This document shows, piece after piece, positions 2,429 through 63,846 of a stretch of DNA of 64,000 nt. The notes beneath the pieces are model-generated. The model made no database searches. It had not been told where the DNA came from and saw nothing but the letters and a program-made list of their open reading frames with translations. A program made the position numbers and the translations under genes. This stretch comes from Ensifer sesbaniae (GTDB lineage Bacteria; Pseudomonadota; Alphaproteobacteria; Rhizobiales; Rhizobiaceae), in assembly GCF_013283665.1 (NCBI RefSeq), contig NZ_JABEKU010000001.1, positions 3,603,137-3,667,136 on the forward strand, read 5' to 3'. Numbering within the stretch: position 1 is the first letter of the stretch; every line of letters begins with the position of its first letter.

Positions 2429-3319
2429 TCACCGGCGCTCAAGCAGGCGGCAAATTTCCTCGAGCTGATCGAGCGTCTTATAGGCGATGCGGAGATGGCC
2501 ACCAGACGCCTTGTGGTTGACGGTCACCTCGAGGCCAAGGCTATCCGACAGGGTGCGTTCCAACGCCAGCGTATCCGCATCCTTCTCGTCGCGGCGCGCT
2601 GTCTTGCCGAAATTCGGATCGTTCTGCGCGCGGATATCGTTCTGGGCCATGCGCTCGGCATCACGCACCGAAAGCCCCTTGGCGACGATCGTCCGGGCCA
2701 GCGTCGCCGGATCCGACGTGGGAATGAGCGCCCGTGCATGACCCGCGGAAAGCGTGCCCTCCGACAGCATGTCGCGCACCGGTTCCGGCAGTTTCAGCAG
2801 CCGCAGGCTGTTGGCGACGTGACTGCGGCTCTTGCCGATGATTTCACCGAGATCGTTCTGCGTATAGCCGTGCTCGGCAATCAATTGTTCATACCCAAGC
2901 GCCTCATCAAGCGGGTTGAGGTCCGAGCGCTGAACGTTTTCGACGATGGCGATCTCCAGCGCCGTCCGATCATCGACGTCGCGAATGATCACCGGAATCT
3001 CGGTGAATCCGGCTAACTGTGCGGCCCGCCAGCGGCGTTCGCCGGCGATGATTTCGTATCGATCGACACCAATGGTGCGGGCGACAACGGGCTGAACGAT
3101 ACCATGCTGGCGAATCGAATTGGCGAGATCCTGGAGTTCGGTTTCGTCGAACTGTCGGCGCGGGTTGCGCGGGCTGCGCGACACAAACTCAATCGGCACC
3201 CGTCGGTCCGGATTGACCGGGACAGGGGCTGCGGCGCCGGTCTGCAGCGGTTGATCCATCTCACCGATCAACGCCGCCAGTCCGCGACCAAGCCGTCTCT
3301 TCGAGCTATCGTCGTTCAT
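2429..3319 (-). CDS. parB: Chromosome partitioning protein ParB
   Basis: CTP-dependent DNA clamp that loads at parS and spreads to organise the origin region for segregation. The 296-aa protein shows the expected order: basic N-terminal ParA-stimulating segment (RRLGRGLAALIG), CTP-binding motifs GERRWRA (93-99) and ENVQR (127-131), a helix-turn-helix at about 152-172 (GYTQNDLGEIIGKSRSHVAN) and a C-terminal dimerisation domain. It lies 35 nt downstream of parA in the same operon. Several matching parS palindromes are present in this window. Confidence 0.97.
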   Translation of the reverse strand: MNDDSSKRRLGRGLAALIGEMDQPLQTGAAAPVPVNPDRRVPIEFVSRSPRNPRRQFDETELQDLANSIRQHGIVQPVVARTIGVDRYEIIAGERRWRAAQLAGFTEIPVIIRDVDDRTALEIAIVENVQRSDLNPLDEALGYEQLIAEHGYTQNDLGEIIGKSRSHVANSLRLLKLPEPVRDMLSEGTLSAGHARALIPTSDPATLARTIVAKGLSVRDAERMAQNDIRAQNDPNFGKTARRDEKDADTLALERTLSDSLGLEVTVNHKASGGHLRIAYKTLDQLEEICRLLERR

Positions 3320-3354: not shown

Positions 3355-4149
3355 TTATGCCGCCTTGCGCTGGCGCTCACGCTGAATCACTTCCGATGCC
3401 AACTGCAGATAGGCCTGGCTTCCGGCACATTTCAGATCGTAGAGGATCGCAGGCTTGCCGTAGGACGGCGCCTCCGAGACGCGAACGTTGCGCGGGATGA
3501 GCGTGTGATAGACCTTGTCGCCAAGATGGGTCCTGACATCGCTGACGACCTGCTGGGCGAGATTGTTGCGCGAGTCGAACATCGTCAGCACGATGCCCTG
3601 GATATCCAATGACGGGTTTACCGATCGGCGAACTTGGTCCACGGTTTCCAGCAATTGGCTGAGGCCTTCCAAGGCGAAGAACTCGCACTGCAGCGGCACC
3701 AGCACGGAATGTGCGGCCGCCATGGCATTCATCGTCAGCAGATTGAACGACGGTGGGCAATCGACGAGTACGTAGGAATATTCCATCGCCGCCGGGCTAA
3801 CCAATGCCTTGCGCAACCGGAAAACCCTGTCTGCTTCCCGCGAGATCTCCATCTCGACGCCAAGAAGATCCATCGTCGAAGGGACGATCGAGAGGTTCGG
3901 AACGGCGGTTTGCTGCGCGATCTCGCCGATCCCATGGGATCCCATCATCAGCTCGTAGGACGAGAGGTTTCGATCGCGCCGCTGAATACCCAAACCGGTG
4001 CTGGCATTGCCCTGCGGATCAAGATCGAGGATGAGGACGCGCTCGCCGATCGCCGCCAAAGCGGTAGCCAGATTAATGGCGGTCGTCGTTTTACCGACTC
4101 CACCCTTCTGATTTGCGATTGTGATGATCCGATTTCTTGCGCCAAACAT
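3355..4149 (-). CDS. parA: Chromosome partitioning ATPase ParA (Soj)
   Basis: ParA/MinD-type ATPase that drives segregation of ParB-parS complexes along the nucleoid. The deviant Walker A KGGVGKTT is at residues 15-22, followed by DLDPQGNAS and the second Asp motif VLVDCPPSFN. At 264 aa it has the chromosomal ParA length and lacks the N-terminal HTH extension of RepA-type plasmid ParAs. It follows rsmG by 15 nt and precedes parB. Confidence 0.97.
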   Translation of the reverse strand: MFGARNRIITIANQKGGVGKTTTAINLATALAAIGERVLILDLDPQGNASTGLGIQRRDRNLSSYELMMGSHGIGEIAQQTAVPNLSIVPSTMDLLGVEMEISREADRVFRLRKALVSPAAMEYSYVLVDCPPSFNLLTMNAMAAAHSVLVPLQCEFFALEGLSQLLETVDQVRRSVNPSLDIQGIVLTMFDSRNNLAQQVVSDVRTHLGDKVYHTLIPRNVRVSEAPSYGKPAILYDLKCAGSQAYLQLASEVIQRERQRKAA

Positions 4150-4164: not shown

Positions 4165-4806
4165 TCACTGAACCTTGCGTGACAGATTTGCGATCTCGAG
4201 CACAACAGAATCCGGCTCGACGACGCTTGGATGTTTTACCAGATCGAATTGATAGCGGCCAATGGCTTTGTCGATTTCGCGCTGGTAATCCCGCCCTTTG
4301 TGGAAGTAGGCGACCGTTTTGCGCTCTTCGGCCAGCAACCACGGCGCCGAATAGTCGAGCAACAGCGTCAAGTCGGCCAATGCGCGCGCGGAAACTGCGT
4401 CTGCCTGCGGAATCACCTTTCCAGCTTCTTCGATCCGAATCGGATGAACGGAGCCACGTGCACCCGTTTCGGCCAAAGCGACTCGCAAGAATGCGGCCTT
4501 CTTGTTGTTGCTTTCGACGAGATGCACCCAGCCGTCGGCGAACTCCGAGAGATAGATCGCCGTAATGACACCCGGGAAGCCGCCGCCGCTGCCGAGATCA
4601 ACCCAGGTCTTCGGCTCGGGAGACAGTTGCGCAAGCTGCAGACTGTCGACGATATGACGGCGCCATAAATCCTCGATCGTCGAGGGCGCCACGAGGTTGA
4701 TCGACTTCGCCCATTTCTGAAAGAGGCGGGCAAAATGCTCCAGTCGTTCATTCGTTTCACGTGAAACACGCAGTCCGTTCAACACGTCGACTGGACTCGT
4801 TTTCAT
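4165..4806 (-). CDS. rsmG: 16S rRNA (guanine-N7) methyltransferase RsmG (GidB)
   Basis: SAM-dependent methyltransferase modifying G527 of 16S rRNA (E. coli numbering); loss gives low-level streptomycin resistance in known bacteria. The SAM-binding motif [11 protein letters not shown] is at 69-79. Its ATG overlaps the mnmG stop by 4 nt (ATGA). Codons for residues 13-18 (RVSRET) are a parS-like palindrome at 4753-4768, so this coding sequence also serves as a ParB-binding site. The length of 213 aa is normal. Confidence 0.95.
4753..4768. promoter_or_regulatory. parS: parS-like ParB-binding site inside rsmG
   Basis: CGTTTCACGTGAAACA matches the widely conserved 16-bp parS consensus TGTTTCACGTGAAACA at 15 of 16 positions. 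It lies in the rsmG coding sequence, 1.4 kb from parB. Confidence 0.85.
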
Positions 4807-6729: not shown

Positions 6730-6745
6730 CGTTTCACGTGAAACA
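6730..6745. promoter_or_regulatory. parS: parS-like ParB-binding site between mnmE and mnmG
   Basis: CGTTTCACGTGAAACA, 15 of 16 matches to the parS consensus, in the 100-bp gap between mnmE and mnmG. It is identical in sequence to the site inside rsmG. Confidence 0.88.
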
Positions 6746-8320: not shown

Positions 8321-8336
8321 TGTTTCACGTGAATCA
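8321..8336. promoter_or_regulatory. parS: parS-like site upstream of mnmE
   Basis: TGTTTCACGTGAATCA, 15 of 16 matches to parS. An isolated half-site TGTTTCAC lies 18 nt earlier at 8303-8310. The 370-bp gap 8116-8485 holds this site, the rho terminator and presumably the mnmE promoter; I see no gene in it. Confidence 0.82.
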
Positions 8337-8485: not shown

Positions 8486-9751
8486 TTACGTGTTCATCGA
8501 GTCGAAGAAGTCGCCATTGTTCTTCGTCTGCTTGAGCTTGTCGATGAGGAACTCGATCGCATCGGTCGTGCCCATCGGCGCCAGAATGCGGCGGAGCACG
8601 AAGATCTTCTGCAGATCCTGGCGCGGCACCAGCAGGTCTTCCTTACGCGTACCGGACTTGAGGATGTCCATAGCCGGGAAGATGCGCTTGTCGGCGACCT
8701 TGCGGTCGAGCACGATTTCCGAGTTACCGGTACCCTTGAATTCTTCGAAGATGACTTCGTCCATGCGGCTGCCGGTATCGATCAGCGCGGTCGCGATGAT
8801 CGTCAGCGAGCCGCCTTCTTCGATGTTACGGGCAGCACCGAAGAAGCGCTTCGGACGCTGCAGGGCATTGGCGTCGACACCACCGGTCAGGACCTTGCCC
8901 GATGACGGAACGACCGTGTTGTAGGCGCGGCCGAGGCGGGTGATCGAGTCGAGCAGGATGACGACGTCGCGGCCGTGTTCGACAAGGCGCTTCGCCTTTT
9001 CGATGACCATTTCGGCCACCTGCACGTGGCGGGTTGCCGGCTCGTCGAAGGTCGACGAAACGACTTCGCCCTTCACCGAGCGCTGCATGTCCGTCACTTC
9101 TTCCGGACGCTCGTCGATCAGGAGAACGATTAGGTAGCATTCCGGATGGTTGGCGGTGATCGAATGCGCAATGTTCTGCAGGAGAACGGTCTTACCGGTG
9201 CGCGGCGGCGCGACGATCAGGCCACGCTGGCCCTTGCCGAGCGGCGCCACGAGGTCGATGACGCGGGCGGAGAGATCTTTCGACGTCGGAACGTCGAGTT
9301 CCATCTTGAAGCGCTCGTTCGGATAGAGCGGCGTCAGGTTGTCGAAGTGAACCTTGTGACGGATCTTTTCCGGATCGTCGAAATTGATGGTGTTGACTTT
9401 GAGCAGGGCGAAGTAGCGCTCGCCTTCCTTCGGTCCGCGGATCGGGCCCTCGACCGTGTCGCCGGTCTTCAAGGAGAAGCGGCGGATCTGGGAAGGCGAG
9501 ATGTAAATGTCGTCGGGACCGGGAAGGTAGTTTGCATTCGCGGAACGGAGAAAGCCGAACCCATCCTGCAGGACTTCAACGACGCCTTCGCCGATGATTT
9601 CGATATCCTGTGCGGCAAGCATCTTGAGGATCGCGAACATCAGCTCCTGCTTGCGCATCGTGCTGGCGTTTTCGACCTCGAGCTCCTCGGCAAAGGCGAG
9701 CAGATCGGTCGGCGTCTTGTTCTTGAGTTCTTGTAGCTTCATTTCAGCCAT
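8486..9751 (-). CDS. rho: Transcription termination factor Rho
   Basis: Hexameric RNA helicase that ends transcription. The N-terminal Rho_N domain begins [15 protein letters not shown], then an RNA-binding cold-shock-like domain ([11 protein letters not shown] at about 60-70), then the ATPase core with Walker A APPRTGKT at 181-188, Walker [17 protein letters not shown] and the [16 protein letters not shown] segment. The 421-aa length is normal for alphaproteobacteria. It lies downstream of hemE-hemJ on the same strand, 194 nt away, with its own leader. Confidence 0.98.
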
Positions 9752-9872
9752 GAAGGATCCATGTTTGGTATGGGTAATGGAGAGATGGCGAGTATTCGTT
9801 GGGGAGCTGCGGCTGGAAGAGGCAGGCTCTTGTCTTTGTCACAAGCCATGAAGAGGAGATGGCAGAAAATAG

Positions 9873-9888
9873 CGATTCACGTGAAACC
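9873..9888. promoter_or_regulatory. Degenerate parS-like palindrome between hemJ and rho
   Basis: CGATTCACGTGAAACC keeps the core TTCACGTGAA but differs from the parS consensus at positions 1, 3 and 16. It is probably a weak or non-functional site and is listed because of its position between two stronger sites. Confidence 0.4.
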
Positions 9889-9945
9889 CCGCAAGGGGCT
9901 GTCGCAAATTAGAAACGACTATTGCAAACCACAAATCGATTAAAT

Positions 9946-10485
9946 TCAGAATGGCTTCACCACGACCATGATCACGATGAGAATCATCAGCAGCGTCGGG
10001 GCCTCGTTCATCAGCCGCCAATAGCGCGCGTCGTGCTTGTTTTCGTCACGCTGAAATTCGCGAACGGCTCGGCTGAAGCGCATGTGGACACCCGTCAGCA
10101 GCACCACGAACAGGAGCTTGGCGTGCAGCCAGCCGCCCTGGAAGCCATAGACGCTCCAGGCGAGGTAAAGCCCGAGCACCCAGGAGATCATCATCGCCGG
10201 GTTCATGATGACCTTCAAAAGCCGCATCTCCATCATCTTGAAGGTTTCCGACTGCGCCGAGCCCGGCTCGGCGTCGGTGTGATAGATGAAGAGGCGCGGC
10301 ATGTAGAGAAGGGCCGCCATCCAGGACATGACCGCGATGACATGCAGCGCCTTGATCCAGAGATAGAGATCATCCGGCTGCCAAAGGAACAGACCGACAA
10401 GAAGCGCGACGAAAGCGCCGAGCGCAATCGCTGCCCTGAGCCGCGCCCTGTTGCCGGGCGCCTGATCGGTCTGTTTCTCCGCCAT
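9946..10485 (-). CDS. hemJ: Protoporphyrinogen oxidase HemJ
   Basis: Integral membrane protein converting protoporphyrinogen IX to protoporphyrin IX, the HemG/HemY replacement common in alphaproteobacteria. The 179-aa protein has about four membrane helices (AALGAFVALLVGLFLW-like, HVIAVMSWMAALLYM, MISWVLGLYLAW, LLMILIVIMVVV). It carries the family's conserved HVIAVMSWMA and MPRLFIYH segments and a GxHM motif. Its start overlaps the hemE stop by 1 nt, so both haem steps are translationally linked. Confidence 0.93.
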   Translation of the reverse strand: MAEKQTDQAPGNRARLRAAIALGAFVALLVGLFLWQPDDLYLWIKALHVIAVMSWMAALLYMPRLFIYHTDAEPGSAQSETFKMMEMRLLKVIMNPAMMISWVLGLYLAWSVYGFQGGWLHAKLLFVVLLTGVHMRFSRAVREFQRDENKHDARYWRLMNEAPTLLMILIVIMVVVKPF

Positions 10486-11516
10486 CAGCTTGCTCCGCGG
10501 ACCCGGGCAACCAGGGCCGACACGTGATCCGGATCGGCCTGCGGCGTGATGCCATGGCCGAGATTGAAGATCAGCGGTCCATGGCCAAGCGCATCGAGAA
10601 TACGGTCGATGCCTTCCGCGAGCGCCGTGCCGCCCGCAACGACCCGCATCGGATCGAGGTTGCCCTGGACGGGCCCTTCCTTCTGCAGATCCTGCGCAAA
10701 GGAAAGCGGCACGGTCCAGTCAAGACCGATGGCATCGGCGCCCGTCGCCTGGCGATAGGTCTTCAGTAGCTGACCGGCGCCTTTCGCAAAGGCGATGATC
10801 TTCGCGTTCGGCCGCTGCGCCCGGACCGAAGCGATCATCCGGCGAACCGGCTTGACGGCATAACGGGCGAATTCCTCCTCGCCGAGAACCCCCGCCCAGG
10901 AATCGAAGATCTGCACCGCATCGGCGCCGGCATCGATCTGCCGCACGAGATAATCGGCCGAGACATCAGCAAGGAAAGACAGCAGGTGATCGAAGGCTTC
11001 CGGATTGCGGTAAGCGAAGAGACGGGCAGGGGCCTGGTCCGGCGTTCCGTGTCCGGCGATCATATAGGTCGCAACCGTCCAGGGAGCGCCACAGAAGCCG
11101 AGCAGCGTCGTTTCTCCGGGGAGTTCGGCGCGCAACCGCGACACCGTCTCGAATACCGGCTGGAGGTGCTCGGCGATGCCCTCAGGCTTCAGGCTAAGGA
11201 TGCCGTCGACATCGATCGGATCCATTCGCGGCCCATGACCTTCCTCGAAGCGCACATTGCGTTTCAGAGCATCCGGGATGACCAGGATATCGGAAAAGAG
11301 AATGGCGGCATCGAAAGCATATCGACGGATCGGCTGCAGCGTCACCTCGACTGCGAGATCCGGCGTGTAACAGAGATCGAGGAAGCTTCCGGCCTTAGCC
11401 CGCGTTGCCCTGTACTCCGGCAGGTATCGACCGGCCTGGCGCATGAGCCAGATCGGAGGAGGAGACACCGTCTTCCCTGCCAAAACCTCCAGAACCTTTC
11501 TGCGCGTTTCGGTCAC
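10485..11516 (-). CDS. hemE: Uroporphyrinogen decarboxylase
   Basis: Decarboxylates uroporphyrinogen III to coproporphyrinogen III in haem synthesis. The signature [15 protein letters not shown] is at residues 21-35, followed by [16 protein letters not shown] and [12 protein letters not shown]. The 343-aa length is as expected. It is transcribed away from the 407-bp origin-like gap. In Caulobacter and Sinorhizobium the chromosomal replication origin is known to lie next to hemE. Confidence 0.97.
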
Positions 11517-11923
11517 GGATCATCTCTCCCAATCTAAAATCAAAGATATTTAGAAGGTTTCTATTTCTTAGAGTCGGTGGGTATCAAGGATTAAAACAAC
11601 CCACCAACTTGTCCACGGTTGCAGATCGGGATGAAGCGCGCCGGGACAACAACTGCGCCATCTGGAAAAACAGTGCAGATAGGCGAATAAAGGCCTTTTG
11701 ATTCAGTCGATTAGCGACACAGAGATTTCGACCGGGCTTGTGGACAAACGGTTGATACGCGTGACACTTTGTCATCGCCGCGAGTCTTTTCCACATTTGC
11801 CGCGGAGCATTTTCCGCGGCTGCGCCAATTGTGAATAAGTCGGCTGTTTTCCACTTGCCTGGATCGGCACCGCGTCGTTAGCTGTTCTTCATCCCGGCTT
11901 ATCAACAGCACCAGGAGAATTGC
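11517..11923. other. oriC: Putative chromosomal replication origin (oriC)
   Basis: A 407-bp non-coding gap between divergent hemE and ppsR. It has an AT-rich stretch at 11530-11573 that could unwind. It has several 9-mers at or near the DnaA-box consensus: TTGTCCACG 11609-11617, TGTGGACAA 11739-11747, TTTTCCACA 11787-11795, TGTGAATAA 11830-11838 (reverse of TTATTCACA), TTTTCCACT 11847-11855 and TTATCAACA 11899-11907. It also has inverted repeats GGTGGGT/ACCCACC (11576-11605) and GCCGCGGA/TCCGCGGC (11799-11820). parS sites surround it and parAB, gyrB, holA and dnaQ are near. The hemE-adjacent location fits known alphaproteobacterial origins. No TTAA-N7-TTAA CtrA box was found. Confidence 0.78.
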
Positions 11924-12745
11924 GTGGAGAACAAGAAAAACTACTTCCACCTTCACCTGATTTCGGACTCGACCGGTGAGACTCTGATCGCCGCAGGGCG
12001 CGCGGCAGCGGCTCAATTCCAGAGTTCCCATGCGCTGGAACATGTCTATCCGCTGATCCGCAACCGCAAACAATTGCTGCAGGTTCTCGATGCGATCGAT
12101 GGCGCGCCCGGCATCGTGCTCTACACGATTGTCGACCGGGAACTCGCCGATATCATCGACCGGCGTTGCCGCGACATGGGTGTCCCTTGTGTCTCGGTGC
12201 TCGACCCGATCATCGACCTCTTCCAGTCCTATCTGGGATCGCCCTCGCGCCGTCGCTCCGGCGCCCAGCATGTGATGGATGCGGAATACTTCGCCCGTAT
12301 CGATGCGCTCAACTTTACGATGGACCACGACGATGGTCAGTTGCCTGCCGATTTCGACGAGGCCGATGTCGTTCTCGTCGGCATCAGCCGGACGTCGAAG
12401 ACGCCGACCAGCATCTATCTCGCCAACCGCGGCATCAAGACCGCCAACATTCCGATCGTCCCCGGCGTGCCGTTGCCGGACAGATTGATGGAGGCGACGA
12501 AGCCGCTCGTCGTCGGTCTGATCGCCACCGCCGACCGCATCTCACAAGTGCGCCAGCACCGGGTACTCGGAACGACGCAAGGGTTCCATGGTGATCAATA
12601 TACGGACAAGGCCTCGATTACCGAGGAACTGAAATATGCCCGGTCACTTTGCGCCCGCAACAACTGGCCGGTCATCGATGTTACCCGCCGTTCGATCGAG
12701 GAAACCGCGGCGGCCATCGTTGCCCTGCGTCCGCGTCTGCGCTAG
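11924..12745 (+). CDS. ppsR: Pyruvate,phosphate dikinase / PEP synthase regulatory protein
   Basis: Bifunctional ADP-dependent kinase and Pi-dependent phosphorylase that switches PPDK or PEP synthase off and on (DUF299 family). Start GTG 11924 is preceded by CAGGAGAA. The N-terminus reads [13 protein letters not shown] and the P-loop-like [15 protein letters not shown] (about 151-165) is the family hallmark; [26 protein letters not shown] closes the protein in shorter conserved blocks. The length of 273 aa is normal. It is the first gene rightward from the origin, followed by maf after 31 nt. Which partner enzyme it controls is inferred. Confidence 0.93.
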
Positions 12746-12776
12746 ACCCGAATCGAACAATACGGGAACCTGCTTG

Positions 12777-13376
12777 ATGAATCCTTTGCTCGTCCTGGCC
12801 TCGGCAAGCCGGTTTCGCCGTGCGCTCCTGGAAAATGCCGGCCTCGTTTTCGAGGCGAAGGCTGCCAAGATCGATGAACGGGCGCTGGAAAAGCCGCTCG
12901 AAGAAGCCGGTGTTGCGCCCGAAACCGTAGCGCTCGCGCTGGCGGAGGCAAAGGCGCGCGACGTCATCAGGCATTTTGACGACGCGCTGGTGATCGGCTC
13001 GGACCAGACCATGTCCTTAGGAGCGCGGGTCTATCACAAGCCAAAGGACATGGCGGAAGCGGCACAGCATCTGCTTTCGCTGTCGGGCAAGACCCATCGC
13101 CTGAACAGCGCCATCGTGCTGTTGCGCGGCGAAGAGGTTGTCTGGCGGCACGTCTCTTCCGCGCACATGACCGTGCGGCCGCTGACGGCAGACTTCGTCA
13201 GGCGCCACCTGGAGCGTGTCGGCGAAAAGGCACTTTCGAGCGTCGGCGCCTACCAACTGGAAGGCGAGGGGATCCAGCTCTTCGAAAAGATCGAGGGCGA
13301 CTATTTCACCATCCTCGGTCTTCCGATGCTGCCGCTGCTCGCCAAACTTCGTGAACTGGGAACGATCGATGCGTGA
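12777..13376 (+). CDS. maf: Maf-family nucleotide pyrophosphatase
   Basis: House-cleaning nucleoside triphosphate pyrophosphatase of the Maf fold (non-canonical or methylated nucleotides). ATG 12777 gives [15 protein letters not shown] with the substrate-binding SxSxxR motif at residues 9-14; VIGSDQTM carries a catalytic Asp, followed by KPKDMAEA and [11 protein letters not shown]. The length of 199 aa is typical. The 3' end overlaps aroE by 8 nt (ATGCGTGA). Whether it is the YhdE-like or YceF-like subgroup is not clear. Confidence 0.92.
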
Positions 13377-14226
13377 TTCACGTGAAACATTTGTTAACCA
13401 CGCCTTCGTCACCGGCTATCCGATCAAGCATTCCCGGTCGCCTCTGATCCACGGCTATTGGCTGAAACAGCTCGGTCTGCCCGGCAGCTATCGCGCCCAT
13501 GAGGTACGTCCGGAAGATTTCGGCGGCTTCATTGCAAGCCTCAAGGACGGAACGTCCGGCTTCTGCGGCGGCAATGTCACCATCCCGCACAAGGAACTCG
13601 CCTGTCGCCTGGCGGATCGACCCGATGAACTGAGCCAGGAGCTCGGCGCCGCCAATACGCTTTGGGTTGAAGATGGAGAGGTTCGCGCCACCAACACCGA
13701 TGGCCGCGGCTTCGTTGCCAATCTCGATGAGCGGGCCGTCGGCTGGGACAAGACGTCGACCGCCGTTGTCCTCGGCGCCGGCGGCGCCAGCCGCGCGGTC
13801 ATCCAGGCGGTCCGTGATCGCGGCATCAAGACGATCCATGTTGTCAATCGGACGGTCGAGCGGGCGAAGGAGCTCGCCGATCGTTTCGGACCGTCGGTCG
13901 AAGCGCATCCCATGGGCGCGCTCAAGGAGGTGATGGCGGGTGCAGGCCTGTTCATCAACACCACTTCCCTTGGCATGGACGGCAGCGAAGCGCTGGCGAT
14001 CGATTTCGGCATCATGGCTTCCGGCGCGGTCGTGACGGACATCGTCTATGTTCCGCTGAAGACGCCGATCCTGGCCCAGGCGGAGGCGCAAGGTCTTGCG
14101 ATCGTCGACGGCCTGGGCATGCTTCTGCATCAGGCCGTGCCCGGCTTCGAGCTCTGGTTTGGCTGTCGGCCAACGGTCGATGCCGCGCTTCGACAGCGCA
14201 TCATCGATGATATGGACAGGCACTGA
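13369..14226 (+). CDS. aroE: Shikimate dehydrogenase
   Basis: NADP-dependent reduction of 3-dehydroshikimate in aromatic amino-acid synthesis. ATG 13369 overlaps the end of maf. Visible motifs are HSRSPLIH (21-28, substrate site), NVTIPHK with the catalytic Lys, nucleotide-binding GAGGASRAV and NTTSLGM. The 285-aa length is normal. Codons 3-6 (DSRET region) form a parS-like palindrome, mirroring the SRET-encoding parS in rsmG. coaE starts within its stop codon. Confidence 0.95.
13374..13389. promoter_or_regulatory. parS: parS-like ParB-binding site at the maf/aroE junction
   Basis: TGATTCACGTGAAACA, 15 of 16 matches to parS (T3 to A). It spans the maf stop codon and the first codons of aroE, 1.5 kb to the right of the putative origin. 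Confidence 0.8.
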
Positions 14227-37663: not shown

Positions 37664-37687
37664 CCGGCGTTTCACATGAAACGCCGG
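37664..37687. other. 24-bp inverted repeat downstream of the DUF2852 gene
   Basis: CCGGCGTTTCA and TGAAACGCCGG form 11-bp perfect arms around CA. No T-run follows, so it is at best a Rho-assisted or processing hairpin. The centre GTTTCACATGAAAC resembles a parS whose central CG is changed. Confidence 0.55.
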
Positions 37688-63830: not shown

Positions 63831-63846
63831 TGATTCACGTGAAACC
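63831..63846. promoter_or_regulatory. Degenerate parS-like palindrome after pckA
   Basis: TGATTCACGTGAAACC, 14 of 16 matches to parS, overlapping the left arm of the pckA terminator. It is about 52 kb from the putative origin. Confidence 0.4.

Follow-up and report, generated by a model that had tools for sequence, protein, structure and literature searches.

The chromosomal oriC of Sinorhizobium meliloti was reportedly described by Sibley, MacLellan and Finan in 2006. The origins of Caulobacter and Rickettsia are placed between hemE and a COG1806 gene in an extract of PMC1914354. A first-pass annotation of the DNA considered here took a hemE-adjacent origin as established for Caulobacter and Sinorhizobium. 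A basal unwinding system, composed of a DnaA-box, a spacer and DnaA-trios, is set out in an extract of PMC8287927.

The DNA analysed here (the window) is a stretch of 64,000 nucleotides from Ensifer sesbaniae, corresponding to C1:3603137-3667136 of a contig of 3,711,528 bp (C1), in a genome of 6.9 Mb and five contigs. Within it, hemE and ppsR, both identified by Pfam matches, diverge from either side of a gap that is almost certainly oriC of the main chromosome. The first-pass annotation had proposed a putative origin at this place, and the proposal is supported by GC skew, a parS cluster, a DnaA-box cluster and conservation of the gap. The gap is an orthologue of the known hemE/COG1806 origins and is ordinary overall, apart from a conserved core. 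What marks an origin of the hemE/ppsR type was found (the gene pair, a DnaA-box cluster above chance, an AT-rich segment and a skew turn near parS), while the strict CtrA sites of the CtrA-gated Caulobacter type, the only form scored, were not.

DnaA boxes, unstable DNA and conservation of the gap

Nine-mers were scored against the DnaA-box consensus TTATCCACA, and the background per 407 bp was taken from 38 sampled stretches of the chromosome. The gap holds four boxes with at most one mismatch (0.02 expected) and eight with at most two (0.44 expected), while an exact consensus box is absent from it; the six 9-mers at or near the consensus that were counted on first pass are a fair intermediate figure. 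Apart from portions of this same cluster, no other 407 bp stretch with more than two boxes at one mismatch or fewer occurs in the window or in a 760 kb sample. The weaker box at 11609 reads TTGTCCACG in 9 of 16 gaps from the genus and TCATCCACG in 7 (Table 1).

Table 1. Features of the window, in window coordinates
Feature	Position	Strand	Remarks
parB	2429..3319	-	PF02195, PF17762, PF23552
parA	3355..4149	-	PF13614
parS	4754..4767	.	exact 14-mer
parS	6731..6744	.	exact 14-mer
parS-like	8322..8335	.	1 mismatch
parS-like	9874..9887	.	1 mismatch
hemE, uroporphyrinogen decarboxylase	10485..11516	-	PF01208
hemE/ppsR intergenic gap, putative oriC	11517..11923	.	407 bp; DnaA-box cluster, skew, conservation
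AT-rich block, probable DNA unwinding element	11530..11573	.	75% AT; 50-mer from 11522 least stable in gap
Invariant run, probable unwinding core, may overlap hemE promoter	11558..11596	.	39 bp; 16 genus gaps, own included
GANTC (CcrM site) inside invariant core	11571..11575	.	19/19 rows of gap alignment
Weak DnaA-box-like 9-mer at the place matching E. coli R1	11576..11584	-	3 mismatches to consensus, read from sequence
Weaker DnaA box TTGTCCACG	11609..11617	+	2 mismatches; predicted
GANTC, middle base A/T/G among relatives	11700..11704	.	16/19 rows of gap alignment
DnaA box TTGTCCACA	11739..11747	-	1 mismatch; predicted
Dyad GACA-CTT-TGTC in 14-bp genus-invariant run	11763..11773	.	sequence comparison
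GANTC adjoining DnaA box 11787	11782..11786	.	18/19 rows of gap alignment
DnaA box TTTTCCACA	11787..11795	+	1 mismatch; predicted
DnaA box TTATTCACA	11830..11838	-	1 mismatch; predicted
DnaA box TTATCAACA	11899..11907	+	1 mismatch; predicted
ppsR, kinase/pyrophosphorylase, COG1806	11924..12745	+	PF03618
parS-like	13375..13388	.	1 mismatch
parS-like	37669..37682	.	1 mismatch
parS-like	63832..63845	.	1 mismatch

The AT-rich block claimed by the first-pass annotation is present at the hemE end of a gap with 49.4% GC overall. Ranked by nearest-neighbour stability, the 50-mer beginning at 11522 comes last in the gap and third from last in the window; the 760 kb sampled from the chromosome contain 102 positions (0.013%) with a 50-mer just as unstable. 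Short inverted repeats, two of which had also been claimed, are indeed found (e.g. 11799-11806/11813-11820 and 11572-11582/11599-11609) and are given no weight as evidence for an origin. The gap sequence is present once in the genome, and an Rfam scan of window positions 9500-13500 gave no match.

A DnaA-trio reading of the gap finds no support above chance. Under the applied rule (a box with at most two mismatches, a spacer of 0–16, and three or more NAN trios) there is one formal match, with three trios and its box at gap position 145 on the minus strand, which is equalled in 51 of 300 shuffles; this single weak match does not exceed chance, and it lies outside the conserved core. The same rule finds matches in 15 of 38 gaps from the class, only four of which are matched by no more than 5 in 100 of their own shuffles. 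As a separate observation, TAG/TTG runs resembling DnaA-trios (runs of at least two, counted in steps of three within the first 250 bp of the gap, at its hemE end) lie on the plus strand in 19 and on the minus strand in 3 of the 38 gaps of class loci L125-L164. The corresponding numbers are 5 and 1 among 16 gaps from the order, and 3 and 3 among 32 from the family (Rhizobiaceae). This strand bias is a lead only, as the measure was picked after the sequences had been seen.

The arrangement is conserved well beyond the genus. A ppsR match is present in 52 of 61 relatives and in 118 of 190 genomes from the class, the other genomes lying outside the hemE counts. A divergent hemE follows beyond a gap of similar size at all 31 loci of the first set (30, counting the own locus, and L073). 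Of another 20 relatives, one belonging to the family and the others to the order, 17 have it upstream of ppsR; the three misses are a contig end of 516 bp, a protein of 32% identity and one plain miss. From 117 class members with ppsR, 40 were selected, and 38 of these show it as well, as do 79 of 80 named loci, the exception being a record truncated at the beginning. The closest named matches come from Ensifer adhaerens strains. The 79 named gaps measure 356–414 bp and carry a mean of 3.1 boxes at one mismatch or fewer, and none is without a box.

One of the records with a hemE/ppsR locus, L226 (JAHREI010000001.1), is titled Bacillus subtilis. Its protein is 69% identical to that of the window, the same value as for the Pseudochrobactrum records L227-L229, and the record is probably mislabelled or contaminated.

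A genus-invariant block at the hemE end

The longest run that is invariant among the 16 genus gaps has 39 bp (11558-11596), the next longest only 14 bp. This core, which was missed by the first-pass annotation, is a target deserving experiment. We read it as an unwinding core that overlaps the hemE promoter region, and it may be promoter and unwinding DNA in both roles at once.

The block is not invariant across the family, as its pattern (at most three mismatches) matched only 99 of 247 family genomes, in two of them twice; a reversed control matched 2 of 247. Among the matches listed from the GANTC, CcrM and origin literature, no title concerns such a block. When a profile of the right half of the core is run over oriC of E. 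coli, its best site is R1, a likeness that is only suggestive because 41 of 1000 shuffles (about 0.04) reach the same score. Applied to 54 gaps from outside the family, the profile gives 16 matches at the 5% level (2.7 expected), only 10 of which are located in the hemE half. As DnaA boxes alone could yield this excess, it does not establish that gaps outside the family carry a homologue of the block.

A further observation concerns the dyad GACA-N3-TGTC. It was found in 31 of 74 gaps of the Rhizobiaceae type and in none of 59 others, with 0.005 expected per 407 bp. The copy at 11763-11773 resembles the site of a dimeric protein.

It is quite possible, though to us not the more probable reading, that the 39 bp block has been kept mainly as a minus-strand promoter of hemE, read by GcrA and CcrM, and not as unwinding DNA. 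Its location 42–80 bp upstream of the hemE start would suit such a role, and possible hexamers can be pointed out (TTGATA - 18 - TAGAAA) with a GANTC inside the 18 bp spacer. All 32 family gaps carry this GANTC (GAGTC in the window): those of the 31 family genomes with a ppsR match, and that of L073. The genome also encodes, at C1:1177208, a protein with a RAMA domain, a domain also present in CcrM; among 14 control genomes, RAMA matches occur only in Caulobacter. GANTC methylation is sensed by GcrA, according to an extract of PMC11514494. Against this, a promoter scan reports no sigma-70 site at its threshold, below which the candidate hexamers fall, and within the genus the spacer is conserved equally with the hexamers, which would be unusual for a promoter. 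Moreover, the gap has its least stable DNA right next to the block, and the profile of the block's right half fits R1 best within oriC of E. coli, if weakly.

CtrA motifs and GANTC sites

As noted on first pass, the strict CtrA box TTAA-N7-TTAA is absent from the gap of the window; it is equally absent from 15 other gaps of the genus. Elsewhere, strict boxes were found in 1 of 31 first-set gaps, 6 of 17 further ones, 7 of 38 from the class and 8 of 79 named ones. The first-pass annotation took the missing boxes as a hint of different cell-cycle gating. The hint is right and already known, as the S. meliloti origin is reported to have no CtrA motif and not to be bound by CtrA (PMC4433202), and CtrA of Brucella abortus is reported not to bind its origin (PMC2877005). 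If what is reported of the close relative S. meliloti holds here, the timing of initiation must come from other factors.

With three GANTC sites, the gap exceeds the 0.53 expected for 407 bp. Of the 79 named gaps, 74 carry the core site, in each case within gap positions 47–66 and with G or C as middle base; the loose expression behind this count was confirmed by position and by reading ten of the rows. The five gaps without it (L233, L234, L236, L242 and L244) were set aside as outside the family only after the absence had been noticed; three are titled Alsobacter, Bradyrhizobiaceae and Microvirga, and the other two are metagenome bins whose names give no family.

Conservation of the core GANTC invites the view that opening of the origin depends on CcrM methylation, in place of gating by CtrA. 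The complete conservation in family gaps, the excess of sites, and the retention of two more of them (one in 16 and one in 18 of the 19 gaps aligned, the middle base of one of the two being variable) all speak for it, as does the report that Caulobacter cells overproducing CcrM accumulate extra chromosome copies (extract of PMC3973325). The same paper states, on the other hand, that control of initiation in Caulobacter does not require CcrM methylation, and in A. tumefaciens depletion or overexpression of CcrM altered ori2 but had no detectable effect on ori1 (extract of PMC11514494). We accordingly consider gating by methylation very unlikely. A more far-reaching version is just as doubtful, in which Rhizobiaceae origins would have exchanged the trio-like repeats present near hemE in other origins of the Alphaproteobacteria for a single conserved, CcrM-methylatable block that is unwinding core and hemE promoter together, an epigenetic gate in the role that CtrA has in Caulobacter. 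If it were true, passage of the fork, through hemi-methylation, would reset origin opening and hemE transcription together. The GANTC block offers a small and directly testable target for what times initiation in rhizobia, the S. meliloti origin being unbound by CtrA (extract of PMC4433202).

Chromosomal setting and comparison with described origins

GC skew was sampled over about a quarter of the 3.71 Mb contig (38 stretches of 20 kb, 6 further stretches and the window). Among 42 pieces, all 18 to the left, beginning at 2.0 Mb and ending with the window's first 16 kb, are negative, and 22 of 24 to the right, around to 1.92 Mb, are positive; in this sample the skew switches back at 1.92–2.0 Mb, roughly opposite the gap. 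The cumulative minimum was determined over uninterrupted sequence that starts at 3.50 Mb and, with the contig taken as circular, runs 20 kb beyond its end; it falls at C1:3611029 within mnmE, 3,624 bp to the left of the gap. In our judgement this offset is within the usual blur, and a skew minimum elsewhere, named by the first-pass annotation as evidence against an origin here, was not encountered in the sampled sequence. Skew alone places the terminus, since the single match to a dif-like pattern is poor and lies on a different replicon.

The parS sites that the first-pass annotation saw around the gap are part of a strictly local cluster. All ten 14-mers of the genome with at most one mismatch to parS lie within C1:3577945-3666981, from -37 to +52 kb relative to the gap, and seven sites are in the window, where 0.08 would be expected (16-mer, at most three mismatches). 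The polarity of the KOPS motif fits an origin at the gap when the arms are considered (49 plus and 7 minus to the right, 8 plus and 31 minus to the left), but the 115 kb immediately left of the gap hold 10 plus and 9 minus.

A more local observation is that over C1:3561187-3614160, in the 55 kb nearest to the gap on its left side, KOPS-like sites are 10 plus and 1 minus where minus is expected.

The dnaA gene is found at C1:539814, some 637 kb from the gap, and a dnaA distant from the origin is usual in the Alphaproteobacteria. It is extremely unlikely that the gap is only a divergent control region of hemE and ppsR with some DnaA-regulated sites, the true origin lying near the parS cluster or dnaA, as the inexact skew minimum, the distant dnaA and the KOPS turn left of the gap could suggest, since the box cluster is without equal in the sequence searched, dnaA (0.54 Mb) is well inside the arm whose skew is mostly positive (-0.003 at 0.50 Mb, +0.033 at 0.60 Mb), and orthologous gaps are described as origins (extract of PMC1914354).

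Our model of oriC has as its computed part the box cluster, the unstable DNA, the turning point of the skew, the parS cluster and the conservation. DnaA would bind the array of boxes towards ppsR (11609-11907) and from there open the AT-rich end on the hemE side (11522-11596), where the invariant core would contribute its weak R1-like site and may at the same time overlap the hemE promoter. Opening would be followed by helicase loading and the departure of two forks in opposite directions, and ParA and ParB, acting on the surrounding parS cluster, would presumably move the origin region. Assigning the origin to this gap fixes the strand and dosage coordinates of the Ensifer chromosome, and is in line with a wide conservation of the hemE/ppsR origin, but not of CtrA sites, across the Alphaproteobacteria.

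Several database records touch on the locus. A record as large as a chromosome (L072, CP090106.1; 3.72 Mb), labelled plasmid pSymB of S. meliloti Ak57, starts inside the gap, in oriC, and is apparently a misnamed chromosome. The Sinorhizobium records K101, C101 and M103 (3.52 Mb, plasmid collection) also match the locus over 92%.

Like the basal unwinding system, the Ensifer gap has a DnaA-like site beside AT-rich DNA, here facing hemE, but runs of at least three NAN trios near a box are no commoner than by chance. The likeness to oriC of E. coli is confined to R1 as the best match there for the right-half profile (the right 13-mer and R1 being compared), whereas the spacing between the T-rich part and R1 differs from that in the Ensifer core. 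Cori of Caulobacter crescentus, compared by description (extract of PMC1914354), shares the position between hemE and COG1806 (ppsR), a similar length (404 bp), DnaA boxes and AT-richness, but has five CtrA sites where the Ensifer gap has no strict motif. Pairwise identity with oriC of S. meliloti is only 64%: of the 402 bases aligned, 258 agree, and the differences fall in the boxes and most of all in the central part. The two origins are not known to differ in function. The two nevertheless lie between the same genes and, with a gap of 405 bp in S. meliloti, can be aligned end to end; three of the four Ensifer boxes are kept there at one mismatch or fewer and the fourth at two or fewer, and a run of 43 identical nucleotides (window 11554-11596) is located in the AT-rich end.
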